Origin: Limonium bicolor
Lineage: Eukaryota > Streptophyta > Magnoliopsida > Caryophyllales > Plumbaginaceae
Length of the DNA stretch: 64,000 nt
Reading direction: 5' to 3'
Assembly (NCBI GenBank): GCA_023374045.1
Contig: CM041779.1
Coordinates: forward strand, 303,314,167 to 303,378,166
Within the stretch, counting starts at the first letter, position 1. The number at the start of each line of letters is the position of its first letter. Below, piece by piece: positions 10,181 through 45,984 of the stretch. The notes under the pieces were generated by a model. The model made no database searches and was not told the DNA's origin. It saw nothing but the letters and a program-made list of their open reading frames with translations. The translations under genes and the position numbers were made by a program.

Positions 10181-11962
10181 GGGGCCGGTTTTTAAGGTGA
10201 CTCACCACACTTATCTAGCTAAGTAAAGAGAAAGCAAAAAACAAGTAAGTTATAAAGTAAAAACACTATTCACCTTTTAAGATAAATATCACATTTTACT
10301 TACCTCTCTCCTCACTTCTTCATTCTCCCTTGTTTCACACGGTTTCTTGCTCTCTTTCTCTTCTCCATTCACGTAGAACTCAACTCCATGAAAGCTCCAT
10401 CTTCTCTTGCACACTACTTGCTCATTTAAGCTCCAAATCCAAAACAAAATACATATTCCTCTTAGTTAGCTCAAGCTCCTCTTTCTATCTTTTCAAAACT
10501 TCAAGAGCTTCATTTTGGTGCCAAGTCAAACCACCATTAGAGGAGGAAATTCAAGTTTGGAGACTCCATTGGCATCTCCATTCTCTTAAGGTAAAGAAAG
10601 TGTAAGAAAATCTAGGTTTCCACCATTTTCTTCACATGTCCGAAAATATATACTCATGGAACTCCATGTTTATGCCTTGTTCTAGCTTGTTTCTACTCTT
10701 CAAAGGAGAGAGGAGGTCCTTCTTGCTTCATATCCAAGTTGTCTTGAGAAACCAAGGTAAAACAATCACATTAATACCTTAAAACATATTTTTAACCTAG
10801 GGTTTGTTCCTTAGGGTTAATGTGTTATCTAGTACTCATTGGAGTCATTGGATATTGGTTAGAACATTGGCAAGGAGAACACATTGGTGACCGAGATTGA
10901 ACAAAGAAAAACCTAAGGAGAAAAGCTTTTAAGCTTGTGAGAAAACAAGGTAAATTACTTACCTTAAGATGTTTGTTGTTTAAGGGAATGGAATTTAGTA
11001 TATGATGAGTTTAGTGTAGAGCTTATATTGGGAAGGTTATATAAAACCTAGGAGAAACAATGACTATACTTGTGAACTTGTGACTAAGGAGCAAATGAGA
11101 AAAAGAGATAGTTTAAGAATATCAAGGTGAAGTACAAGAAGCATTTTATTTCAATGGGAGCCTTGTTGAGTGTATTCGCAGGTTGAAGGATATATGTGGA
11201 AATTCAGTGGTTAAGATTATTGTCATTTAAGGGCCTAAGTGCCAAGCATTTTAAGTTTAAGCACTATATGATGATGTGGTGTGGTTTTGGTGTAAATTGG
11301 GTGTTAAGGTGTTGTGGTGAGAATTTGTGTGATGTTGGTTGTTTGATGGAGAAAAACCATGTATTAGGTGGTATTATATACTAGAGAACCCATGGCAAAA
11401 TTTAGAGGAGAACCTAAGTGTTTAAGATATTCTAAGGGAATTTAATGACTAAGGAAGTACTAGGATGTTCTATAGGTTGTCTTGATGAAAAAGGGTGAGT
11501 TAGGTGTTCTAATGACTTATAATGACTTAGGTTACTATGAAGGATTTAGAAATCAAGAGAATGTATTTGAGTATTTAGGACTTAGGCAAATGTTGGTGCA
11601 CAACTAGGAAGGAAATAATGTGATGATGGAGTTTAAACTTGTGAAGGAACATTAAGTAAATGCAAGAGAGTTTAGATAGTGAAAGATGCTTGGGAGATGA
11701 TGTTATAGTGGTGAGGAAAACATTTGGTATAGTGGCTACATTAGGTATGAACCACCACCTAGAAACCTAGAGGAAAGCATTACAAGTGTTAGCATTATTA
11801 CAAGGAAAATGCATAAGGACTAAGGTGTATCTTGGTGAATGATTTAATGTGTTTTAGGAGGGCTTAAGGTGTATTTGAGGTGCCCAAATGAGGTTATAAC
11901 ATATTAGGATATATGAGGAGAAGTTTGGAGATGAATGGGAATTTAGAAACAAGGTTCTGGAG

Positions 11963-12292
11963 CCGACCGACCTTAGGGACCGACTTGCAAGGTCGGTCGG
12001 GCTCAGTTTACACTACCGGAAAATGTTTCTGGAATCGACCGAACTTGGGGACCGGACTTACAAGTTCGGTCGGACCTGTATTTTGTGAAGGAATTAAGTC
12101 TCTGGAATCGACCGAACATGGGACCGGACTTGGCAAGTTCGGTCGAGCTCAAATTTCCCACGGGGGAAACTCTCGGGAATTGACCGACCTTGGGGACCGG
12201 ACTTACAAGGTCGGTCGGGGTAGAATTTTCAAACGGTGAAGTGTTCTGGAATGGACCGACCTTAGGTAAGGTCGGTCGGAAGTTCGGTCGGA
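11963..12292 (+). repeat. Five-unit palindrome array in B 5' LTR (period ~73 bp)
   Basis: Units start near 11963, 12036, 12109, 12181 and 12253. Each has arms such as ACCGACCTT / AAGGTCGGT or ACCGAACTT / AAGTTCGGT around a GGGGACCGGACTTAC-like centre, so each can fold as a hairpin. Arms change together between units (CCGACC/GGTCGG versus CCGAAC/GTTCGG). The copy in the 3' LTR is at 22449-22781. Confidence 0.85.
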
Positions 12293-13380
12293 CCCAAAAA
12301 AAAAAAAAAAAGAAATTTAATTCTAAGAATGGTAATAGGTAATGAGGTATACCTTTGGTAGGGTGGTAATGATTAGGACCCTAAGAACTTAAGGAATTAA
12401 GTTAAGATTAAGTATAAGTTTTAATGTTTAAAGTTAAGTTTGTAAGCTAAGTGGCAAAGACTTGAGAGGTTATTAAATGGGAATCTTAGACTAAGTGAGT
12501 TAAGTAAGGTGCAAATAACTAATGACCTAAAAATGAATGAATGTTTTAGGTTTGTGAATTGGGACCCCGAAGAAGGTTAAACAAACAACGATCGACGGTG
12601 AACGGTACAATCCTTCTTGTGACCTGCTTGCTAACGAGGTGTCCCTCGGCTTGTGTGCTATCTGTTTAATTGCTATGACTAAAACAAGATAAAGCATGCA
12701 ACCGGTTATATTGTTCTCGTTGTGAGTGTTATATTTACACTAACCCGCGAGACTTGAGATTGTTACTAACCAAGTTTAGTACTTACTGAGTTAAGAATAA
12801 GAGTTAAGTTTGATGGTTGTTGGTTAATGCCCGTTAAGGCTTAGCTAGCACATGGTGTTAAGATTCTACTAACTGGAACTTGAGTGAGGAAACCCGGGAC
12901 CGATCTCCGGTCATGCATGCTAAGGAAAAAGGGGGACGGTATCTGAATCAGATCCGCCCTCCGCTTAAGGACTTGTCTTCGGACTTGTAGCCTAGGGCCG
13001 GTTGCCGGCTCAGCTACGCTGGACTCCCGTCCAGAGTAGGTGGCATTAAGATGGTGCGGTGGGATCACCTAAATCCCAGGTTCGAATTAAGCTACAACCA
13101 ATCCCTTCCAGGAAAGGTTTGTATACTGAGATTAAGATTAAGATTGAGATTAAGATTAAGGTAAGGTAAGGAACTGATTAAGGAAATGAGGACTAAGGGG
13201 GGGTTACTAACCCACTTGTTAAGGGAACGCTTGAGTCGTTCATTGGTTGTGAACTATATATGTTCATCTGTGGTTATTGTTATTGCACTTCATATTATGC
13301 TTGTGTATGTAATCAATTTCCATGCTATCGACAATTAGTCGTCGTAGCCCCGTTAGCTTGGGGGCCATGAGAGGGTGTAC

Positions 13381-15537: not shown

Positions 15538-16276
15538 GAAGATTCAACATCTGCTACCCTATACCATCTACATCTAACCCGGAGCACACCGACATCGAAA
15601 CTGTACACTTTCCAACCGAACAATGTCAGGTTATCCACCCAGGTATGATTCTATTAAGGGGATACCTGACACCCGAAGCACAAATAGCCATCATCAGGAG
15701 ATGCAATCAACTAGGGATGGGACCGGGAGGTTTTTACACACCGGAGTACCCAGGGGGAGCAAGGATGAAATTAAAGATGATGAGCTTGGGCAAGGATTGG
15801 AATCCGTATGCCAAGAATTACCAAACCACAAGGGAGCAAGATGGAGTCTCACCACCGGGAATACCCGAAGAGTTCCATCCAGTTATTACACAAGTCGTGG
15901 AAATCGCTCAGCAGTTGGAGGCTGAACCGATTCCAGACATCCAAGCAGACATTTGTATTGTAAACTTCTACGAAAAGGACGGGAAACTGGGACTACACCA
16001 GGATAAGGACGAGACAACGGAGTCTCTCGAAAGAGGGATACCCGTATGTCTTGGTCCATTGGAGATGATGCGGAGTTTTTATACGGCGAGCAGAAGCGTG
16101 CGGACCGTGCAGATAAGATAGTACTTAAGTCAGGTGATGTATTAATTTTGGGAGGAGAATCAAGGATGTTATACCATGGAATTAAGAGAATCAAGCTGAA
16201 TACAGCACCGTCAGCAGTAATCAATGCGACGCATATGAGACCAGGAAGATTAAACCTAACCTTTAGACAATATTAG
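15538..16276 (+). pseudogene. Element B AlkB-type 2-oxoglutarate/Fe(II) dioxygenase exon (one frameshift)
   Basis: Encodes an AlkB-fold dioxygenase resembling plant ALKBH1-like proteins, which oxidatively remove alkyl or methyl groups from nucleic-acid bases using Fe(II) and 2-oxoglutarate. Visible features are a YLTPEAQIAIIRRC entry segment, GGFYTPEYPGG, MSLGKDWNPY, and NFYEKDGKLGLHQDKDE with the iron-binding HxD at 15996-16004. After a frame change come VLKSGDVLILGGESR, the second iron histidine in MLYHG, and the 2OG-binding RLNLTFR, ending at a TAG (16274-16276). The only lesion is a missing base near 16045 (compare C near 37905), so this copy would lose the second histidine and the Arg motif. 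The exon is in phase with the Gag knuckle exon if spliced at 15404/15538. The lesion could be a sequencing error. Confidence 0.88.
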
Positions 16277-31351: not shown

Positions 31352-31632
31352 ATAGGAACGCTCTGGTGACAGGAGATAGAGTTTGGAAACTGTGAGCCTA
31401 GGATATGGAATTGGGTGTGTGAATTCGTGTGTGAGGTACGTTAGTGTATGAACATTTAGTGAATTAATAGGCGCATACTGACATTAAATAGAACACTTTT
31501 GAGTGGGAAATAATTATGCGAGCTCATAATGTTGGATGGACTAGGAAAAGTCTTGCGAAGGTAGCGGGAAAGTGCTGGAAAGGAACGTAGTTAACCTGCA
31601 AAAATTGGTAAACCCATGGCTCCTTATGTCTC
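31352..31632 (+). other. Element D leader and gag start, before C
   Basis: The leader is followed by a degraded gag start: an ATG at about 31617 precedes C, and after C the frame-like text continues with a Pro-rich run from CCACCACCGCCCC near 46050, recalling the Gag of B and C. No open frame survives. Confidence 0.5.
31628..31632. repeat. Target-site duplication of element C (left copy)
   Basis: GTCTC, repeated at 45980-45984. Confidence 0.93.
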
Positions 31633-33520
31633 TGAAATACCCCGTAATTAGAAACAATGATTAATTAGGCTAATAAATAATTTTAGAGGCTTAATTAAGT
31701 CTAAATAAATATTAGGGAACAAATCCCGAAGAAAACGGATCCTTAAAATGGATTAAAAACACTAACGAACATTAAAGCGCATTTTTCGAGGTAACCGGGA
31801 AAACGTGACTTTAAGCGGGTCAAATAGACTCGTAACAATTTTGGTCAACTAAATAGTCATTAATAAATATTAGTGAAGCTTTGGAACCAATAAAATCAAT
31901 AAAACGAGAAATTAGTAAAAACTGTCAAAAACGGGAAGTTGTGGGGTAGAAACATAAATAACCAAAACTTATGTGTCCAATAATGTAAAAAGAATTTTTA
32001 CAACCCATATGGCTGTGTGTGCTGTCCGATTTCAGCCTCACTCACACACACCCTCTATTCTCTTTTTATTCACAAAAGACAAAAACATTAAAAAGCAAAA
32101 AGTAACATATCTACCTCACTACCCCACTCTCTCTCCTATCTCTATTCTTTTCTTCCTCACGTAACAGCACCTCACCCCTCACTCTCTATTTCTTTCTTCC
32201 TCTCCAGCGACAACAATGGAGGATTAGCAAACCCCCACAAAATACCACCTTCTCTCCTCTTGTTACTCCATCAAACCTTCTCCAAAAATTATAAAAAGTA
32301 TATCATTGTGTTCCTCTCTTCAAGGAGAACACTTCCCTCTTTTCAAAATCCGGAAAGGAGCATTTTCGTTTTTATGGGTATGCCCCATTTGGAGCTTCAA
32401 GACTACCATTAGCACCACCTTCTTCTCCTTGTTCTTTTAAGGTAAAAATCTTCTTGAAACTCCATCTTTTTCTAGCCTTTAAGGGCAAAACGAAATTAAG
32501 CTAAAACCTTGTTGGTTGTTTTGGTACTCTAGCCGATTTTGGGCTTTGTTGGAGGAGAGGAAACATTGTTCTTGAGCTATCCTAAGCATCACCTACATCC
32601 TTGCAAGGTAATGAAATCTCTAAACCCTAAAATATACCTTAAGCTTCAAAGAATGGTTAAGAGTTAGTTTTAAGTATTGAAATGTGTATGTATATGGGAT
32701 GTAGTGTAAGATTGTTGAAGTTGCTAAAACCGGTGGAAAGAGGAAGGGGGAAGAAAGGAGAAGCTTGTGAAATAACAAGGTAAAATATACTTGTCCTTGT
32801 GTAGTTTTGTATGTGTTTGTGTAACAGATTTTGGAAGTATAAAATGGTATTGTAAAATGGTAGTGTAGTGGTGGAGTAGTGTATAAGAGAATACAAATGT
32901 TTTGAAACCTTAAGAGACATTGTAAACTTGTCAAAACAGATTTGGGAATGAGAGGTTATGTGCAGGAATTTTAAGAGTGTTTAGTAGTTGATATTGGTGT
33001 ATGAGAGCTTGTATATTATTGCTGTTTTCAAACAGGTGAAATGGGTAACAAAATGTGAATACATGATGTGGTGAGAATGTAAGATTTTAGGGGAGGTTAT
33101 GTCAAAATTTACCTAGAACTAGAACACTTAAGAAAACTAGAAACTAGGTGAAACTATGTGCTTGTAACAGATTTGTATTGGAGCTGTTTAGTTGGTAGGT
33201 TAGGAGGGATAACTAATGTATTGTAAGCTTTAGAAATGACATTATAAGAGGGAGTTAAAGATGAAGAAGGTGAGAGTCAAAACCTGTAGCAAATGCAACT
33301 TAGAAAAATATTGTAAGTGCTGAAATGAGAACTTAAGAAAATGGGAGAGTGAATTAGTATAAAAGGGTGTAACGGATTGGTAATGGATTTAAACATGTTT
33401 AGGTGACTAATTAGGTGCTAAAATATGTGGGATTAAGTGCAGGAACAATGGGGAATTAATTAGGCAAAGTTTGGGTTGTAACAGACAAAGAAAACTGGAA
33501 AATCTGTCAAATTCGTAGCA

Positions 33521-33849
33521 GGGTCCGGGACCTACCTTCTGTACAAGGACCCGGACCAGGGTATTAAAACTAGCCGAGAGTTACAGCAGGTGGTGGTCCG
33601 GGACTTAAGTCCCATACAAGGACCCGGACCACCCCTGTAAAATAGGCCGAGAGTTTGTCAAAGTATAGGTCCGGGACTTACCCCTTGTAAGAGGACCCGG
33701 ACCATGGTGTGAAAATAGGCCGAGACTTTCCAACCCTTTGGGTCCGGGACTTGACCCTTGTACAAGGTCCCGGACCATACCAGTAAAAACGCCCGAGACT
33801 TTGGTAATGAGGTGGTCCGGGACTTAAGACCTGGACAAGGTCCCGGACC
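33521..33849 (+). repeat. Five-unit palindrome array in C 5' LTR (period ~73 bp)
   Basis: Units start near 33521, 33595, 33667, 33740 and 33814. Each pairs GGTCCGGGAC with a downstream GGACCCGGACC or GGTCCCGGACC across 12-18 bases. The spacers share GGCCGAGAGTTT-like sequence. The copy in the 3' LTR lies at about 43975-44304. Period and unit number equal those of B although the arms are different. Confidence 0.85.
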
Positions 33850-35001
33850 AACCTAAACTTGTAAAATTAAGAGTATTAAATGGGTAATAAGGTAAGGAAG
33901 TGAATGGTAATGATAGTATAAGATCAATAAGACTTAATTAAGGATGTCTAAAGGACATTAAGAGTATAAACAGGTTTTGAAACTAAGGAAGATTAAGTAA
34001 ATCATATGTAAGTATAAGAAATGTAAAGGTATAGTAAGAATGAGTTAGGAAACAAAAGAGTAATCGTGTTTGGTTAATGATAGTTAGATTAATCATTCAA
34101 TTGTATGTATATAATAGGATTTGATTTGTGAACACCGGAGGAACGTTGGGATACAAGTACGACGGTGAACGGTATGAATTCCTCATGCCCCGTATGCTAC
34201 CTTGGTTACTCTGATTTGTGTGTTGTGTGCTAATTGATCACCAAATAAGATAAATGCACGAATCGGAGTTATTATGCTTACTCGTGAATATGTAGTGTTG
34301 TATGTTGTGAATATTGTCTTTAATCTCAGTTTGTATAATTCATGAAATGTATGGATGATAATGAATGTGTGTATGTATGAGATGATGTATTGTGACCGAC
34401 TATTATTTGTTATTGGACTTCTAACTGATTCCTAACAAGCTAACCGATCTAACTTAAATTGGTAATGAATTTGGAATGAGTAGAAGTCCGATATAGTTTC
34501 GGCCACGTGTGAGGATGAGGAGACACAAGAGGTTGGATCCAATTCCTGACTCTTAAACTGGTCCGCGGCCCAAACCCCTTAAATGGGTAGCATCCCAGAT
34601 CGGTGAGTCAAGTAAAGCCTGGTGGTGGGACGGTGTAGTCCCTGCCCAGAGGCCATACCGGCTTAACATGAGTATGAGTAAGTAAGTATGAGTAAGTAAG
34701 AGCAAGTAAATGAGTATGGAAAGGTAAGCAAGTAAAGTATGAAAGAGAATGTGTAAGTATTGTGTAATGAGTAAAAGAGTAATAAGCATTCCGATTAAAC
34801 CGGATGCGTAACCTGGCTAACCTTTGTGAAGGTAAGTTGTGTATGCTAAGGTATTGCCGTCTTGGATTGTATATCGAATTGTATATGATCGTATGTTGTA
34901 TGCAGAGCATGTATGTATGTATTCAATGAACCACTTGTTTAAGTGGACGTCAAATAGTCGGCGTGCCCTTGTTAGCACTCGGTATATGCGGAGTTTATGC
35001 A

Positions 35002-35035
35002 CAGCTTTTGTTGAGCCCCTTGGGGCACCGTTTTT
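35002..35035 (+). repeat. Double hairpin plus T-run near the end of C 5' LTR
   Basis: CAGC-TTTT-GTTG (GCTG in the 3' LTR copy at 45453-45486) then GCCCC-TT-GGGGC, followed by ACCGTTTTT. Same layout as B at 13381 with different stem bases. Confidence 0.78.
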
Positions 35036-35531
35036 AATATGAATGCAGGTGCAAGAGAGGGATGAAGATGTGAAGACTTAGTTCTATTTCTTTTGTCTTC
35101 TTTTTGGTTGTAAACAATGAATTATGGTTGGTGTACTAAGTAGTACACGGCTGTAGCTTTTTCATTAGCCGGTGTACCATGGGGTACACCTTTTTGGATA
35201 TTGATAGAATGGGAATTGGTATAGATGAGTAGCTGGTAGAAACTCATTCTTTTTGGATACTTAAGAATGATGTAATCGAATATACTTTGGCACTCGGTAA
35301 TCCATTGATGTAAGTATTCGGTATGTGGTATTTTGGTAAGTAATATAGTAGTTCGGTATACTATGATCATCAGACCGTCACTGTAAGTAGTAATAGCCTT
35401 GCTAGCCGTATGGGCGGTTAGCGGCATTGTGTCACCCGCCGTAGTAAGTAGTATTTCCGCTGCGTGTAACTTTGATTATTGGGATGATTGGACGGTAAGT
35501 ACAGGATTAGCGGTTGGGGTGTTACAAAAAG

Positions 35532-35543
35532 TGGTATCAGAGC
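35532..35543 (+). promoter_or_regulatory. Primer-binding site of C
   Basis: TGGTATCAGAGC, overlapped by the perfect inverted repeat AGAGCGTA-GT-TACGCTCT at 35539-35556. Confidence 0.92.
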
Positions 35544-35755
35544 GTAGTTACGCTCTTATGTCCATAGATACCGAGCATAGGGGGATTACCGAGTTAGGAT
35601 TTCAACCGTCTTAAGACGAACACTTAGAAACCTAACTAGGAACGACCGTTGTTAACAACGGATACCCTTGACGTTCTTAGGAACGATACCTTGTTTTAAA
35701 TTCAAGACCCTTAGGTCATATCTTGCAAAGCCTAATGTGGATGTTAATTATTCAG

Positions 35756-36411
35756 ATGTCAGGAAGAGGTTCAGGTCGCCCTAGAGGAGGGGGCAATGAC
35801 GGACCGGGCACGCAGACGATAGCTGAGATCGTCGCTGCCACGGTAGCACAGATGCTACCACAAGTAATCAACGCTATGCAACAAAACCAACAAACTCAAG
35901 CGGGGCCAATCCCTCCCCCGCCACCCAGAGAAGCTAACTGGGTAAAAGCTGTAGCGGAACTCCGCCCTCCCTGCTTTAGGGGCGAGAGTGATCCGGCTAA
36001 GCTAGAAGCCTACATCTCCGAGATGGAGACGGCGTTTGAAACCCTCGAAGCTCCTGCTGAAGTTCGAGTTCGAGTGGCAGCATACTACCTCAAGGATGCC
36101 GCCATGGATTGGTGGAAACTAATCAAGCAAGATCATGTCAACGACCCCACCTTCGACTGGGAGTCTTTCACTTCTCTCCTCCGATCCAAATACTACCCAG
36201 AGCATGTCAAAACAAAAAGAGACTCGAACTTGACGCTCTGAAGATGACAGAAAAGATGTCTGTCGATGAGTACTACCGAACCTTCACTTCTATCCTCCGT
36301 CTTCTACCCGACCTTGGGTACACCGGCCAGGTGTTGGTCGATCGCTTCTATGGCGGTCTGAGCCATCGCCTTCGGTACGGTATGGGATACACACGATTTA
36401 CCTCCCTTCAG
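35756..36411 (+). pseudogene. gag: Element C gag exon 1 (capsid part, one frameshift)
   Basis: The ATG follows TTATTCAG directly. The N-terminus is Gly/Arg-rich, then TIAEIVAATVAQM, a Gln/Pro-rich stretch, and the Gag domain with FRGESDPAKLEAYI, ETAFETLEAP and DWWKLI. A one-base change near 36220 shifts the frame; it continues with LELDALKMTEKMSVDEYY and RFYGGLSHRLRYGM. The exon ends after TSLQ at CAG/GTAAAT in phase 0, exactly where B's exon 1 ends. Confidence 0.85.
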
Positions 36412-36807: not shown

Positions 36808-36892
36808 GTAAACTTCTATTTCTAATTCGTATTCGTACAAGTATCATATCTAGTATATCCACGCACAAATGTGCTAACCCTCTAAACCTTAG
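36808..36892 (+). other. Gag intron 2 of element C (85 bp)
   Basis: GTAAAC...TAAACCTTAG/GT, phase 1, at the position of B's intron 2. Confidence 0.78.
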
Positions 36893-37237
36893 GTTCTGGC
36901 TCCGGTTTCACCAAGAGCTATCCGGACAGCCGCAGCTACATGTGCCGAAGGTGCAATCAAGATCATCCCGGCAAGGATTGCCAAGGAAGAGAGATCCGGT
37001 GCTACAACTGTCAGAAGCCCGGGCACCGAGCCAACTTTTGCCCAGAAAATGCCAAACCAAAAGGAAATTTCCAGAGCTACAAGCAAAGGGAAGGCAAGGA
37101 GGTTGCATCTGGCGATGTACCGACCAAGCAGGCACCACAGGGACAGGGATCCCGGGGACCTCAGCGGGGTGCACCTCAGAGGCAGCCTGTCCTCCATGTC
37201 ATAGACCGTGATGTGTCCGGTTCTAAGTCCGGCCCAG
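36893..37237 (+). CDS. gag: Element C gag exon 3 (two zinc knuckles)
   Basis: Open throughout. A Ser/Gly lead, then CRRCNQDHPGKDC and CYNCQKPGHRANFC knuckles, then a Gln/Gly-rich tail with HVIDRDVSGSKSGP. It ends CCAG/GTAACT, phase 1. The leftover G can complete a glycine codon with either the AlkB exon (from 37391) or the Pol exon (from 38272), both open and in frame. Confidence 0.85.
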
Positions 37238-37390
37238 GTAACTATCTAAACCTTGAATCCTTGAGAAATATGTCTAAGTATTGAAGTAACTGTTTGAGTG
37301 CAAGCATGAGTAAATGAATTGAAGTATGTATTGAGCATGAAATGAAGTAGTTGAAACTAGTACTCACCATAGATGAATTTGTAACCATAG
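37238..37390 (+). other. Gag-AlkB intron of element C (153 bp)
   Basis: GTAACT...GTAACCATAG/GA. It starts at the alternative donor; read-through without splicing ends at a TGA at 37282-37284. Confidence 0.76.
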
Positions 37391-38130
37391 GAAGCTTTAG
37401 TATCTGTTATCCTATACCATCGAAACCAAATCAAGAAGAGATCGACATCACCACATACCACTACACCAGTAAGCAGTGTCAGGTCATCCGACCAGGTATG
37501 ATATTATTAAAGGGATACCTGACACCTGAAGCACAGATTTCAATCATCAGGCGATGTAGTGAACTAGGAGCGGGTCAAGGAGGATTTTATACACCCGAAT
37601 TCCCCGGTGGAGCGAAGATGAAGCTGAAGATGATGTGCTTGGGAAAGGATTGGAATCCTTATACCAAGACATACCAAGAGACACGAACACAAGACGGAGC
37701 AACGCCACCGACAATACCTCCAGAATTTCAGACACTTGTCACACAAGCAGTAGAAATTGCACAACAATGTGAATATGATCCGATCCCCGCACTTGAAGCG
37801 GACCTTTGTATTGTCAACTTCTATGAGAAAGAAGGAAGACTTGGGTTACACCAAGACAAGGACGAGACAGCGGAATCTCTTGAACAAGGAGTGCCCGTAG
37901 TGTCTTGGTCCATTGGTAATGACGCCGTATTTTTGTATAGCGAGCAGAAGCGTGTGGACCTCGCACATAAATTGGTATTGAGATCAGGAGATGTCCTAAT
38001 CATGGGTGGAAACTCTAGGTTGCTGTATCATGGCATCAACAAGATCAAGCTGAATACAGCACCACCGGCCATAATCAATGCCACACACATGAAACCAGGA
38101 CGCCTGAACCTTACCTTTATGAAGTATTAA
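37391..38130 (+). CDS. Element C AlkB-type 2-oxoglutarate/Fe(II) dioxygenase exon (intact)
   Basis: A complete AlkB-fold domain, open from upstream of the acceptor to TAA at 38128-38130. Numbering from the in-frame ATG at 37351: FSICYPIP near 16-23, YLTPEAQISIIRRC 56-69, GGFYTPEFPGG 77-87, MCLGKDWNPY 95-104, iron ligands His167 and Asp169 in GLHQDKDE, His227 in LLYHGI, and the 2OG arginine Arg251 in GRLNLTF. The second arginine of the RxNxTxR motif is Met257 here (Arg in B). The best family match I know is the plant ALKBH1-like group, which demethylates DNA or RNA bases. It probably acts as a Gag-AlkB fusion after splicing from 37237; an internal ATG at 37498 could start a shorter protein. 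It is about three-quarters identical to B's copy by eye, with mostly conservative changes. Confidence 0.92.
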
Positions 38131-38271
38131 ATGCATAACATCATGTAATGTACTAGTAACGTGTATTAGAGACACGGTGTGTATGATGGTTGGTTTATCA
38201 ATAAAGAGCAGTGTTGATTTAAATTCCACTTGTGTCCACCATCATTACTTAATCACTTGTGAATTCAATAG
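38131..38271 (+). other. AlkB-Pol spacer of element C
   Basis: 141 bp after the AlkB stop, ending GAATTCAATAG as acceptor for the Pol exon. It contains CATGTAATGT (38142-38151), shared with B, a possible second donor or other signal. Confidence 0.6.
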
Positions 38272-39527
38272 GTTGTGGACTCGGTACCGAAGGTATCCTG
38301 AGCATCCACACCGAAGCACAAGCCGGCAAAAGCGGCACCATCTTGACGGGAACCTTCCCAGTGAATGGCATTGAAGCCAATGTGTTATTCGACTCCGGCG
38401 CCTCTCACACCTTTGTATCACCATCTTTTGTGAAGAGGTTAAAGCTAGATGCGGATGAGCTACCTAATTTCCTGGTTACTCTCCCCTCGAAGGAGCGAGT
38501 ACAGTGCACCAAGTATTACAAATCAGCCACAATCCAAATCAGAAACGAAGTGTTTCCCATCTCCTTCATCGAATTCAACGGGTTGGGATTCGACTTGATA
38601 ATCGGAATGAATTGGTTGGAGCAGCACAAGGGTAGAATCCTCTGCGCCGAGCATCGATTGCAGCTCAAGAGTCCTTCTGGGGTTACAGTATCTTACCGCC
38701 AGAGACCTAGAGAGCCTTCGACCACAGTCATCTCCGCCATGGCTATGTACCGGGAACTCAGGAAGGGTAAAGAAGTATACTTGTGTTATGTACAAGACCT
38801 GGAGCCAGATCCAGAGTTCATTGACGATGTACCGGTTGTATCTGAGTATCCTGATGTGTTTCCTAAGGAGTTACCCGGCATGCCACCTCAGAGAGCAGTA
38901 GAGTTTGAGATTGACCTCTTGCCAGGTACCGGTCCCATTGCTAGGGCACCGTACCGCATGGCACCTGCTGAAATGACAGAGTTGAAAGAGCAGTTGCGGG
39001 AGTTACTTGACAAAGGGTTCATACGCCCGAGCGTATCACCCTGGGGAGCACCGGTCCTCTTTGTGAAGAAGAAGGACGGTAGCCTACGACTTTGTATTGA
39101 CTACCGCGAGCTGAATGCGGTCACAGTCAAAAATAAATACCCATTGCCACGCATCGACGACCTATTTGACCAGCTGAAAGGAGCCTCAGTCTTCTCCAAG
39201 ATTGACCTCCGTTCTGGGTATCATCAGATTGCTATCAGAGAGCAGGATATAGAGAAAACGGCATTCCGCACCAGATATGGCCACTATGAATTCACAGTCA
39301 TGCCATTCGGTTTGTCAAATGCACCAGCTAAATTCATGGACCTCATGAATCGACTATTCAGTGAGCAGCTAGATACTTCAGTTGTGGTATTTATTGACGA
39401 CATCCTTGTGTACTCCAAATCAGCAGAAGAGCATGAATTTCATTTGAGGAAAGTACTTGAGACACTGCGTGAGAACCAACTGTATGCGAAGTTCTCCAAG
39501 TGCGAGTTCTGGCTAGATCAGGTATGA
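38272..39527 (+). CDS. pol: Element C protease and RT (to a nonsense codon)
   Basis: Begins at the Pol acceptor with [10 protein letters not shown]. Protease active site [14 protein letters not shown] (about 38380-38420), then [20 protein letters not shown] runs from [16 protein letters not shown] and [16 protein letters not shown] through [32 protein letters not shown] and the catalytic FIDDILVYS near 39390-39415. It stops at TGA (39525-39527), where B has a serine codon, in the DQV-FLGH segment of the RT thumb. Unlike B, the RT core here is undamaged. Confidence 0.9.
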
Positions 39528-40240
39528 TTCCTTGGTCATGTCATCTCGAGCGCAGGCATTTCAGTTGACCCTTCTAAGATCGAAGCTGTACAATCATGGC
39601 CTAGACCCAAGACTGTTACCGACATTAGGAGCTTTCTTGGCCTAGCCGGTTACTACCGGAGATTTGTGAAGGACTTCTCGAAAGTCGCTAAGCCCATGAC
39701 TACATTGATGAGGAAAGATGCCACCGTTTGTATGGACAGACGAGTGCGAGTTATCATTTCAAAAACTAAAGGACTCATTGACCTCAGCGCCCATCCTTAC
39801 TCTTCCCAGGGCACAGAGGGATTTGGGGTATATTTGTGATGCATCAGGCAAGGGAATGGGATGCGTGCTCATACAGCATGGCAAGGTAGTTTTATGCCTC
39901 CCGCCAGCTGAAAAAGCATGAGGAGAATTACCCGACACATGACTTAGAGTTAGGAGCCAATGTCTCGCCTTTGAAGATATGGCGACACTATCTCTATGGG
40001 GTAAGCATCACCATCTACTCCGATCATAAGAGCTTACAGTATGTATTCACACAGAAAGAACTGAATTTGAGACAGAGAAGATGGATGGAGTTTCTTTCAG
40101 ATTATGACATCGACTTACAGTATAAGGAAGGGAAGGCAAATGTTGTAGCCGACGCCCTGAGTCGTCGAGCACACTCGCTCCATTCGCCACTCGCTTCTTC
40201 TAGCTTGGTTGACGAGGTGCGAGACACTCAGTTGAGTGAC
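39528..40240 (+). pseudogene. pol: Element C RT end and RNase H (broken)
   Basis: After the nonsense codon the frame continues with [17 protein letters not shown] and [16 protein letters not shown]. Frame changes follow near 39716, 39810, 39890 and 39960. RNase H motifs are [23 protein letters not shown] and [12 protein letters not shown]. All breaks look like one- or two-base indels relative to B. Confidence 0.85.
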
Positions 40241-41300
40241 CCTTATATGACCGAAATCAGACAGAAGATCACAGATGGTACATTTGAGAAGAAGAAATAT
40301 GATTTTCAGTTGCATGAAGATGGTCTGATTCAGCTGAATGGCAGGTTATGCATTCCCCGAAGCAATGCTGAGCTAAAGGATCGCATCCTGCGAGAGTCAC
40401 ACAGTTCCACATTGTCAGTCCATCCAGGAGCCTCAAGATGTACAAAGACATGAAGAGGTACTTCTGGTGGTCAGGAATGAATCAGATGTGACAGAGTTTG
40501 TATTGAGATGCTTGACATGCAGAAAGTAAAGTTTGAACATCGTAGATCGGGCGGAATGGTACAATCGATGCCAGTTCCGGAGTGGAAATTTCATGATATC
40601 TCCATGGATTTTGTTGTAGGACTCCCACCTATCAGGGGAGGACTCAACATGATCTGGGTTGTAGTCGATCGCCTTACCAAGGTTGCCAGATTCATACCGA
40701 TGAAGGACACCTGGAAGGTAGTAGTGAAGCTAGCTGAGCTATTCGACAGGGAGATTATCAGACACCACGGAGTCCCTAAGACTATAGTATCTGACCGCGA
40801 CACCAGATTTCTTTCGAGATACTGCTGAGAGCTACACAGGAAGCGTTGGGTACAGAATTGAAGTTGAGTACCGCCTTCCATCCTCAGACCGACGGTCAGA
40901 CAGAAAGGACCATCCAGACACTGGAGGACATGCTTCGGGCATGTGCCTTAGACTTTCAGGGGAGTTGGTTAGATAAGCTTCATCTTATCGAGTTTTCTTA
41001 CAATAATAGCTATCATGCTTCGATTAAGATGTCGCCTTTCCAAGCTCTATACGGTAGACCGTGCCGTACACCTTTGTGTTGGGATGAGTCGAGTGAAGCG
41101 GTCATCATAGGACCGGAGTATCTTGAGCAAGTGCAAGCTGAAGTTCAGCAGATTCGAGCTAATATGAAGGCAGCCCAAGATAGACAGAAATCCTATGCGG
41201 ATGTGAGACGACGCGATCTTGAGTTCGCATTGGGCGACCAAGTGTTCTTGCGCGTTTCACCTATGAAGGGTGTCTTCCGTTTGGCCAGAAGGGCAAGCTG
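40241..41300 (+). pseudogene. int: Element C integrase (broken)
   Basis: Zinc domain ([16 protein letters not shown], then HPGAS, with shifts near 40437, 40480 and 40515 around the Cys pair), core motifs [24 protein letters not shown] with a TGA at 40825-40828, and [16 protein letters not shown] resuming from 40846. A shift near 41285 precedes the C-terminal module. Confidence 0.85.
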
Positions 41301-41651
41301 AGCCCAAAGTTTGTAGGGCCGTATGCTATCACTGAGAGAGTTGGAGCTGTAGCCTACAGGTTAGCATTACCTGAGGACTTGGGACGTGTCCATGATGTAT
41401 TTCATGTGTCACAACTCAAGAAGTATATCGCTGATCCTTCTCACGTTCTAGAGCCCGAGCACTTATCCATTGAGCCGACCATGAGATATGTTGATACCCC
41501 TGTGAGAATTCTGGATAGGAAGACCAGAGACACTCGCCATAAGTCTATACGAATGGTGAAGGTCCTATGGTCTAACCATGACGTCGAAGAAGCGACATGG
41601 GAGTTGGAAGATGCCATGAAGGCTAAGTACCCACAGTTATTCATAGACTAG
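41301..41651 (+). pseudogene. int: Element C integrase C-terminus and chromodomain
   Basis: KFVGPYAITERVG (GPY/F module), then an open frame through [13 protein letters not shown] and [17 protein letters not shown], the chromodomain, to TAG at 41649-41651. Same ending as B, so C is a chromovirus. Confidence 0.87.
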
Positions 41652-42087: not shown

Positions 42088-45000
42088 TGAAATACCCCGT
42101 AATTATAAACAGTGATTAATTAGGCTAATAAATAATTTTAGAGGCTTAATTAAGTCTAAATAAATATTAGGGAACAAATCCCGAAGAAACGGATCCTTAA
42201 AATGGATTAAAAACACTAACGAACATTAAAGCGCGTTTTTCGAGGTAACCGGGAAAACGTGACTTTAAGCGGGTCAAATAGACTCGTAACAATTTTGGTC
42301 AACTAAATAGTCATTAATAAATATTAGTGAAGCTTTGGAACCAATAAAATCAATAAAACGAGAAATTAGTAAAACTGCCAAAAACGGGAAGTTGTGGGGG
42401 TAGAAACATAAATAACCAAAACTTATGTGTCCAATAATGTAAAAGAATTTTTACAACCCATATGGCTGTGTGTGCTGTCCGATTTCAGCCTCACTCACAC
42501 ACACCCTCTATTCTCTTTTTATTCACAAAAGACAAAAACATTAAAAGCAAAAAGTAACATATCTACCTCACTACCCCACTCTCTCTCCTATCTCTATTCT
42601 TTTCTTCCTCACGTAACAGCACCTCACCCCTCACTCTCTATTTCTTTCTTCCTCTCCAGTGACAACAATGGAAGATTAGCAAACCCCCACAAAATACCAC
42701 CTTCTCTCCTCTTGTTACTCCATCAACCTTCTCCAAAATTATAAAAAGTATACCATTGTGTTCCTCTCTTCAAGGAGAACACTTCCCTCTTTTCAAAATC
42801 CGGAAAGGAGCATTTTCGTTTTTATGGGTATGCCCCATTTGGAGCTTCAAGACTACCATTAGCACCACCTTCTTCTCCTTGTTCTTTTAAGGTAAAAATC
42901 TTCTTGAAACTCCATCTTTTTCTAGCCTTTAAGGGCAAAACGAAATTAAGCTAAAACCTTGTTGGTTGTTTTGGTACTCTAGCCGATTTTGGGCTTTGTT
43001 GGAGGAGAGGAAAACATTGTCTTGAGCTATCCTAAGCATCACCTACATCCTTGCAAGGTAATGAAATCTCTAAACCCTAAAATATACCTTAAGCTTCAAA
43101 GAATGGTTAAGAGTTTGTTTTAGGTATTGAAATGTGTATGTATATGGGATGTAGTGTAAGATTGTTGAAGTTGCTAAAACCGGTGGAAAGAGGAAGGGGG
43201 AAGAAAAGAGAAAGCTTGTGAAATAACAAGGTAAAATATACTTGTCCTTGTGTAGTTTTGTATGTGTTTGTGTAACAGATTTTGGAAGTATAAAATGGTA
43301 TTGTAAAATGGTAGTGTAGTGGTGGAGTAGTGTATAAGAGAATACAAATGTTTTGAAACCTTAAGAGACATTGTAAACTTGTCAAAACAGATTTGGGAAT
43401 GAGAGGTTATGTGCAGGAATTTTAAGAGTGTTTAGTAGTTGATATTGGTGTATGAGAGCTTGTATATTATTGCTGTTTTCAAACAGGTGAAATGGGTAAC
43501 AAAATGTGAATACATGATGTGGTGAGAATGTAAGATTTTAGGGGAGGTTATGTCAAAATTTACCTAGAACTAGAACACTTAAGAAAACTAGAAACTAGGT
43601 GAAACTATGTGCTTGTAACAGATTTTTATTGGAGCTGTTTAGTTGGTAGGTTAGGAGGGATAACTAGTGTATTGTAAGCTTTAGAAATGACATTATAAGA
43701 GGGAGTTAAAGATGAAGAAGGTGAGAATCAAAACCTGTAGCAAATGCAACTTAGAAAAATATTGTAAGTGCTGAAATGAGAACTTAAGAAAATGGGAGAG
43801 TGAATTAGTATAAAAGGGTGTAACGGATTGGTAATGGATTTAAACATGTTTAGGTGACTAATTAGGTGCTAAAATATGTGGGATTAAGTGCAGGAACAAT
43901 GGGGAATTAATTAGGCAAAGTTTGGGTTGTAACAACAGACAAAGAAAACTGGAAAATCTGTCAAATTCGTAGCAGGGTCCGGGACCTACCTTCTGTACAA
44001 GGACCCGGACCAGGTATTAAAACTAGCCGAGAGTTACAGCAGGTGGTGGTCCGGGACTTAAGTCCCATACAAGGACCCGGACCACCCCTGTAAAATAGGC
44101 CGAGAGTTTGTCAAAGTATAGGTCCGGGACTTACCCCTTGTAAGAGGACCCGGACCATGGTGTGAAAATAGGCCGAGACTTTCCAACCCTTTGGGTCCGG
44201 GACTTGACCCTTGTCCTAAGGTCCCTGACCATACCAGTAAAAACGCCCGAGACTTTGGTAATGAGGTGGTCCGGGACTTAAGACCTGGACAAGGTCCCGG
44301 ACCAACCTAAACTTGTAAAATTAAGAGTATTAAATGGGTAATAGGATAAGGAAGTGAATGGTAATGATAGTATAAGATCAATAAGACTTAATTAAGGATG
44401 TCTAAAAGACATTAAGAGTATAAACAAGTTTTGAAACTAAGGAAGATTAAGTAAATCATATGTAAGTATAAGAAATGTAAAGGTATAGTAAGAATGAGTT
44501 AGGAAACAAAAGAGTAATCGTGTTGGTTAATGATAGTTAGATTAATCATTCAATTGTATGTATATAATAGGATTGATTTGTGAACACCGGAGGAACGTTG
44601 GGATACAAGTACGACGGTGAACGGTATGAATTCCTCATGCCCCGTATGCTACCTTGGTTACTCTGATTTGTGTGTTGTGTGCTAATTGATCACCAAATAA
44701 GATAAATGCACGAATCGGAGTTATTATGCTTACTCGTGAATATGTAGTGTTGTATGTTGTGAATATTGTCTTTAATCTCAATTTGTATAATTCATGAAAT
44801 GTATGGATGATAATGAATGTGTGTATGTATGAGATGATGTATTGTGACCGACTATTATTTGTTATTGGACTTCTAACTGATTCCTAACAAGCTAACCGAT
44901 CTAACTTAAATTGGTAATGAATTTGGAATGAGTAGAAGTCCGATATAGTTTCGGCCACGCGTGAGGATGAGGAGACACAAGAGGTTGGATCCAATTCCTG

Positions 45001-45979
45001 ACTCTTAAACTGGTCCGCGGCCCAAACCCCTTAAATGGGTAGCATCCCGGATCGGTGAGTCAAGTAAAGCCTGGTGGTGGGACGGTGTAGTCCCTGCCCA
45101 GAGGCCATACCGGCTTAACATGAGTATGAGTAAGTAAGTATGAGTAAGTAAGAGCAAGTAAATGAGTATGGAAAGGTAAGCAAGTAAAGTATGAAAGAGA
45201 ATGTGTAAGTATTATGTAATGAGTAAAAGAGTAATAAGCATTCCGATTAAACGGATGCGTAACCTGGCTAACCTTTGTGAAGGTAAGTTGTGTATGCTAA
45301 GGTATTGCCGTCTTGGATTGTATATCGAATTGTATATGATCGTATGTTGTATGCAGAGCATGTATGTATGTATTCAATGAACCGCATGTTTAAGTGGACG
45401 TCAAATAGTCGGCGTGCCCTTGTTAGCACTCGGTATATGCGGAGTTTATGCGCAGCTTTTGCTGAGCCCCTTGGGGCACCGTTTTTAATATGAATGCAGG
45501 TGCAAGAGAGGGATGAAGATGTGAAGACTTAGTTCTATTTCTTTGTCTTCTTTTTGGTTGTAAACAATGAATTATGGTTGGTGTACTAAGTAGTACACGG
45601 CTGTAGCTTTTTCATTAGCCGGTGTACCATGGGGTACACCTTTTTGGACATTGATAGAATGGGAATTGGTATAGATGAGTAGCTGGTAGAAACTCATTCT
45701 TTTTGGATACTTAGGAATGATGTAATCGAATATACTTTGGCACTCGGTAATCCATTGATGTAAGTATTCAGTATGTGGTATTTTGGTAAGTAATATAGTA
45801 GTTTGGTATACTATGATCATCAGACCGTCACTGTAAGTAGTAATAGCCTTGCTAGCCGTATGGGCGGTTAGCGGCATTGTGTCACCCGCCGTAGTAGTAA
45901 GTAGTATTTCCGCTGCGTGTAACTTTGATTATTGGGATGATTGGACGGTAAGTACAGGATTAGCGGTTGGGGTGTTACA
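42088..45979 (+). repeat. Element C 3' LTR
   Basis: 3892 bp, nearly identical to 31633-35526, with the same palindrome array and double hairpin. It ends GGGTGTTACA before GTCTC. Confidence 0.95.
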
Positions 45980-45984
45980 GTCTC
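45980..45984. repeat. Target-site duplication of element C (right copy)
   Basis: GTCTC, matching 31628-31632. Confidence 0.93.

Follow-up and report, generated by a model that had tools for sequence, protein, structure and literature searches.

AlkB domains have been described in a plant LTR retrotransposon of the orchid Phalaenopsis, in which 25-kb Tat/Ogre-like elements encode an ALKBH5-class protein as a separate ORF2 of 565 aa, and this protein acts in vitro as a demethylase of m6A in ssRNA (PMC9289625). As far as the sections of that report drawn on here go, AlkB-bearing elements occurred in no other plant among the 121 angiosperm genomes screened; the same sections cite plant RNA viruses whose AlkB domains have RNA demethylation activity. 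A nucleic acid-directed enzyme joined to a structural protein is found in retroviruses, in that virions of MMTV and MPMV contain a dUTPase fused to the nucleocapsid, according to the part of PMC8961515 cited. Among host enzymes, excerpts of PMC10469495 describe rice ALKBH1 as preferring 6mA in single-stranded or unpaired DNA, and excerpts of PMC12786077 report that ALKBH9B frees ONSEN RNA from stress granules, a release which implies that m6A removal can promote transposition.

The locus described here is an AlkB exon of element C, one of the Gypsy-like elements in the window, i.e. the whole 64,000-nt stretch of Limonium bicolor DNA that was analysed and to which all coordinates refer; all features listed lie on its forward strand. 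Element C is 14.3 kb long and is a Ty3/Gypsy LTR retrotransposon, with two LTRs (31633..35526 and 42088..45979, delimited by self-BLAST and LTR comparison), a target site duplication GTCTC in the flanking sequence (31628-31632 and 45980-45984) and the order protease, reverse transcriptase, RNase H and integrase, the integrase core (rve) being below its cut-off. The LTRs end in TG...CA and are 99.07% identical over aligned bases (K2P 0.0093). LTR dating is based on substitution rates of 1.3e-8 and 6.5e-9, which place the insertion at 0.36 and 0.72 million years, respectively. The LTRs of element C, like those of a second element (element B), also contain a tandem repeat with a period of ~73 bp (11955-12298 and 33487-33834 of the window, and the matching 3′ LTRs).

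Behind the 5′ LTR lies a primer-binding-site-like sequence, TGGTATCAGAGC (35532..35543), which we take to be of the initiator-tRNA type. It is followed by the capsid part of Gag (35681..36241), with Retrotrans_gag and Ty3_capsid scores at or slightly below their own Pfam cut-offs and with a frame that is broken further on, and by a Gag zinc-knuckle exon (36886..37237; zf-CCHC, E 1.1e-5). Then come a predicted intron 1 of 153 nt (37238..37390, from donor, acceptor and phase), the AlkB exon (37391..38130) and a candidate poly(A) signal, AATAAA (38200..38205). The protease and the first part of the reverse transcriptase occupy 38272..39527 (RVP_2, RVT_1), and the RNase H, the integrase and a chromodomain-like end, in broken frames, 39890..41651 (ORFs, self-BLAST, Pfam). 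At this end Pfam Chromo scored 21.7 and 23.8 bits, slightly under its cut-off of 25.1; element C is chromovirus-like. The Gag and pol frames are both broken in the ORF list, and the copy is therefore non-autonomous. The initial annotation had assigned the AlkB exon to the element itself, between the Gag knuckle and the protease and within matched LTRs and a target site duplication, and the features above agree with this; its start of the exon, 37391, is also the predicted exon start.

The frame covering the exon is open from 37351 to 38130, with its terminal TAA at 38128-38130, as had been claimed for this copy (no stop, no frameshift). The assignment to the AlkB type, proposed from the letters alone, was upheld by an HMM search, in which the exon matched Pfam 2OG-FeII_Oxy_2 (PF13532) with E 8.7e-44 and 150.5 bits against a cut-off of 31.2. 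A PDB sequence search returned 5xeg first (E 2.1e-71), and E. coli AlkB with E 4.4e-21; 5xeg and 5xoi are structures of rice ALKBH1 (OsALKBH1). A structure model of the exon, built from a 44-sequence alignment, had a mean pLDDT of 90.4 and a pTM of 0.88, and a Foldseek search with it again put OsALKBH1 (5xoi, 5xeg) first, with TM scores of 0.83-0.85 normalized by query and 0.92-0.93 by target. Among the 50 Foldseek matches listed, TM scores by query were 0.70-0.74 for E. coli AlkB, 0.52-0.63 for mammalian ALKBH1 and 0.47-0.51 for ALKBH5. Among the AlkB classes, the domain is thus nearest to ALKBH1, and ALKBH5 is far lower. Within the best 120 of 440 and of 815 matches in the protein database, the closest were four unnamed element-like proteins (60-72% identical), and the next were plant proteins, among which several bear the name DNA N(6)-methyladenine demethylase or ALKBH1C/D.

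Alignment with E. coli AlkB showed that the iron ligands of the HxD...H motif and the cofactor-contacting Asn and Tyr are present (H154, D156, H214, N143 and Y145 of the exon), and that equivalents of W69, N120, Y122, H131, D133, D135, E136, S145, R161, H187, R204 and N206 of E. coli AlkB are kept, whereas Y76 has no aligned residue. The statement that all core AlkB features are present therefore holds for HxD, the distal His and the R204/N206 equivalents, but not for the second 2-oxoglutarate-binding Arg: R238 is kept and R210 corresponds to M244, leaving the RxxxxxR motif incomplete. Elsewhere, the position of M244 is Arg in at least 90% of the 44-protein alignment, in element B, in 29 of the 29 other loci aligned and in all 100 listed of the 10,354 matches to an end-motif pattern in the genome, a pattern which left the codon at this position free (the reversed control gave 4 matches). 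Because a Met replaces the second 2-oxoglutarate-binding Arg, the C copy is probably impaired. Judged by its residues, it is likely weak or dead despite its open frame, whereas the RxxxxxR-bearing family as such is likely not impaired.

Element B contains a homologous AlkB exon (15538..16276, located by self-BLAST and alignment) with one frameshift, in two pieces that are 72-75% identical to the exon of element C; its LTRs have diverged by a K2P of 0.0088. Element B is itself nested inside element A (about 724-25914 of the window), which is Gypsy-like and has no AlkB match.

The abundance of the domain was assessed in the window's own genome (2.92 Gb), where the DNA encoding the iron-binding motif GLHQDKDE had 16,571 exact matches and the reversed control none. 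With the exon of element C as query, all 150 scored places, the window copy included, matched at 91-100% identity and 138 were stop-free; these places were the top of 52,905 first-look candidates, which biases them to good copies. With a plant host protein (P0039) as query, 136 places were scored and two diverged subfamilies, L031 and L032, came out on top. The AlkB-bearing family thus numbers more than ten thousand copies, and four diverged subfamilies (those of B, C, L031 and L032, the last two also called S31 and S32) have a common layout; subfamilies are 55-72% identical to C. The initial annotation had named a one-off host cDNA insertion, absent from related elements, as what would contradict it; such an insertion is ruled out by the genome-wide copies, by the dN/dS values given below and by the motif matches, the domain being common to a very large family.

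Fifteen random 10-kb stretches contained two AlkB copies, and 17% of their bases resembled B or C. Neither copy was intact: one has a stop and a substitution at an iron ligand, the other has frameshifts, and the splice sites are kept in both. Many copies decay, as expected for insertions, while the lineage stays constrained. As to an AlkB-free relative, one random-sample locus (L047) has a related pol, but it is interrupted by another insertion upstream of the protease. No host ALKBH1 gene was recognised among the 136 places scored with P0039 and the 150 scored with a Silene host fragment in the same genome. A single scored row (C1:98437663-98438031) spans residues 12-141 of the Silene fragment, at 41% identity and in a 286-aa open frame, and may be either a host ALKBH1 gene or another subfamily. 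On the same contig, AlkB end-motif matches near 1430076-1461454, 4328394-4349221 and 7387397-7419234 are spaced 10.4-10.6 kb apart, which is the LTR-to-LTR period of element C, and therefore likely represent tandem arrays with common LTRs. The matK gene on contig C1175 shares 97% identity with a Limonium carolinianum cluster, which makes a Limonium the likely host. Large contigs also contain broken matK fragments (C2:144724469, C4:217621294 and others), probably plastid DNA in the nucleus.

Selection on the domain was estimated between elements B and C for the two pieces separately, giving dN/dS of 0.090 (170 codons) and 0.083 (75 codons) at a dS of 1.7-1.9, i.e. near saturation; the protease gave 0.129. 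Over the same split, noncoding identity is 52% in intron 1 and 46% in the gap between AlkB and the protease. Purifying selection on the AlkB domain between subfamilies is thereby shown. Within 30 aligned loci, pN/pS was 0.167 for AlkB, a value biased downwards because the loci were selected by protein similarity, and 0.28 for the protease; the good state of these loci is likewise partly due to the search. In a tree computed without E. coli AlkB, 18 element and element-like rows were separated from 38 plant ALKBH1-type rows by a branch with an SH-aLRT of 100, a topology compatible with a single capture from which the subfamilies then radiated. When E. coli AlkB was included, it was placed on a branch of length 10 among the element rows, which then need two changes rather than one; the 40 host-side rows still separated at 100/100.

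The borders of the exon suggest how it would be expressed. In element C, the Gag exon ends after the knuckle in a predicted phase-1 donor, CAG/GTAACT (the slash marks the junction), and two predicted phase-1 acceptors follow, ATAG/GAAGC at the start of AlkB and ATAG/GTTGTGG at the start of the protease. Use of the second would remove a long alternative intron (37238..38271), with AlkB skipped and Gag joined to the protease. Splice sites were picked by eye in the four subfamilies, and in B, C, S31 and S32 alike a single phase-1 donor after Gag matches both phase-1 acceptors; intron lengths differ among the four, whereas junction types and phases are alike. Across the 30 loci, the donor GT is present in all, the AlkB acceptor AG in 29 and the protease acceptor AG in each of the 29 that were readable. 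The length of intron 1 ranges between 149 and 156 nt, with all residues modulo 3, the AlkB exon is 740 nt long in 29 of the 30 loci, and 25 of the 30 read without interruption from the junction to the terminal stop. The AATAAA motif lies 70 nt past the AlkB stop in C and about 73 nt past the terminal stop in B, and is found behind the stop in 26 of the 28 displayed rows (30 aligned); it is absent in S31 and S32. No knuckle match was found in L032 itself, but the knuckle is present in its sister loci L033-L035, and the Gag-AlkB junction is spanned by none of the four element-like database proteins. Without splicing, Gag would stop within intron 1 in B, C, S31 and S32. Given its own stop and the predicted splice sites, the AlkB exon does not read as a plain segment of the polyprotein. 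The anatomy (one donor, two acceptors, own stop) therefore predicts three products: Gag from unspliced RNA, Gag-AlkB if the first acceptor is used and Gag-Pol if the second is used.

That the AlkB domain is a functional part of a large element family is strongly supported. As to what it does, the explanation that we favour, though we would put it at an even chance, is that the exon is joined by alternative splicing to the Gag knuckle and that the resulting Gag-AlkB protein is packaged and demethylates or dealkylates the element's own RNA or single-stranded cDNA. Gag would take AlkB into the particles, to the packaged RNA and the nascent cDNA, and the substrate on the nucleic acid of the element itself may be N6-methyladenine or else m1A/m3C damage. 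This explanation rests on the domain and its place, its abundance, the purifying selection, the ALKBH1-type sequence and predicted fold, and the phase-matched splice sites in four subfamilies.

A protein acting apart from the particle could instead serve as a cytoplasmic m6A eraser or m1A/m3C repairer on the element mRNA, in the manner of the ALKBH5-type protein of orchids or of the AlkB domains that plant RNA viruses carry. Activity of the orchid protein on m6A in ssRNA and the RNA demethylation activity of the viral domains speak for it (both in the sections of PMC9289625 cited), as does the release of ONSEN RNA by host ALKBH9B (excerpts of PMC12786077). Yet the Limonium domain belongs to another AlkB class, and its predicted fold is closer to those of OsALKBH1 and E. 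coli AlkB than to that of ALKBH5. Moreover, no start unit of its own was identified, and the junction is predicted to be with Gag; we regard such a role as unlikely. The ALKBH1 class itself would suit an action in trans on the host, in which the protein, as Gag-AlkB or from an internal start, enters the nucleus, alters 6mA or chromatin, or else host mRNA methylation, and so weakens silencing of the element. The excerpts of PMC10469495 place rice ALKBH1 in the nucleus and state that it keeps PRC2 from binding and so counteracts the deposition of H3K27me3. The predicted Gag fusion favours delivery in particles, and an action on the host seems to us rather unlikely.

Plant transposable elements are well known to capture genes. 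The domain might be a neutral passenger, that is, a piece of host cDNA carried along as a successful element spread, and gene capture by plant transposable elements is reviewed in PMC13317346 (in the part cited); the missing active-site Arg of the C copy and the broken state of both random copies would agree with such a passenger. It is already contradicted, and very improbable, given a dN/dS of about 0.09 over a split across which the intron is only 52% identical, the number of GLHQDKDE matches, the existence of several diverged subfamilies, and the Arg found in all 100 listed end-motif matches at a codon that the pattern left free. Particle-borne action on the element's own nucleic acid remains the best explanation of the AlkB exon. 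In its most complete form, an ALKBH1-type demethylase would have become a structural-protein fusion, splicing would swap Pol for AlkB, and nucleic acid would be cleaned within the particle. Such a fusion would be a demethylase counterpart of the nucleocapsid-dUTPase, would stem from a capture separate from that of the orchid m6A eraser, and would have been amplified within a single genome to over ten thousand copies; for this whole chain taken together our confidence falls somewhat short of even.

Together, the orchid and Limonium elements would represent two apparently independent captures of an AlkB demethylase by Gypsy elements of plants; the AlkB classes differ, and the host lineages are distant from each other. 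Two captures suggest that transposition is genuinely constrained by base methylation of the RNA or cDNA of retroelements. For a domain of the ALKBH1 class, single-stranded DNA (6mA) is indicated in addition to RNA. The predicted Gag fusion makes the idea of self-targeting directly testable.

Compared with the Phalaenopsis 2-ODD elements (Gypsy_Pa_2799, paALKBH5-like; as described in the sections of PMC9289625 cited), the Limonium element is likewise a plant Ty3/Gypsy element with a captured AlkB-family dioxygenase, a domain kept through amplification and family cofactor residues that are conserved. The two differ in the AlkB class (ALKBH5 versus ALKBH1), in the position of the domain (separate ORF2 versus an exon between knuckle and protease) and in size and, probably, lineage (25-kb Tat/Ogre-like versus 14.3-kb chromovirus-like). 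Membership of the Limonium element in the Gypsy_Pa_2799 family is ruled out by its class, exon position and length. A Tat/Ogre-like reverse transcriptase is disfavoured because of the chromodomain-like end, and the element lineage is likely different from that of the orchid. With another AlkB class, position and host order, the Limonium case looks like an independent capture. The initial annotation knew of no chromovirus with an AlkB domain; a precedent among plant LTR retrotransposons is in print, but in the sections cited it is ALKBH5-class and Tat/Ogre-like (PMC9289625), and for AlkB in chromoviruses no case besides the orchid one was found in the open-access literature.

In Ogre-type elements, too, a putative intron separates Gag from Pol (PMC9289625, same sections), but these elements are without AlkB, whereas the Limonium intron contains an alternative exon with its own stop. 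The AlkB domains of Alphaflexiviridae, Betaflexiviridae and Closteroviridae, likened here by their description in PMC9289625 only, are similarly carried by a selfish element, in replicases rather than in an LTR retrotransposon. Rice ALKBH1 resembles the domain in sequence and predicted fold (5xeg and 5xoi, as above), and plant ALKBH1C/D proteins are about 50% identical to the C exon; in contrast to these, the Limonium AlkB is part of a transposable element, is without the N-terminal region of the host proteins and, in the C copy, has Met for the second 2-oxoglutarate-binding Arg. In arrangement, the retroviral nucleocapsid-dUTPase is similar, being a nucleic-acid housekeeping enzyme at the nucleocapsid-protease border and fused to the nucleocapsid (PMC8961515, in the part cited). 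There, the gene is in the protease frame and the fusion occurs in virions, whereas the Limonium AlkB is another enzyme, on a predicted alternative exon.
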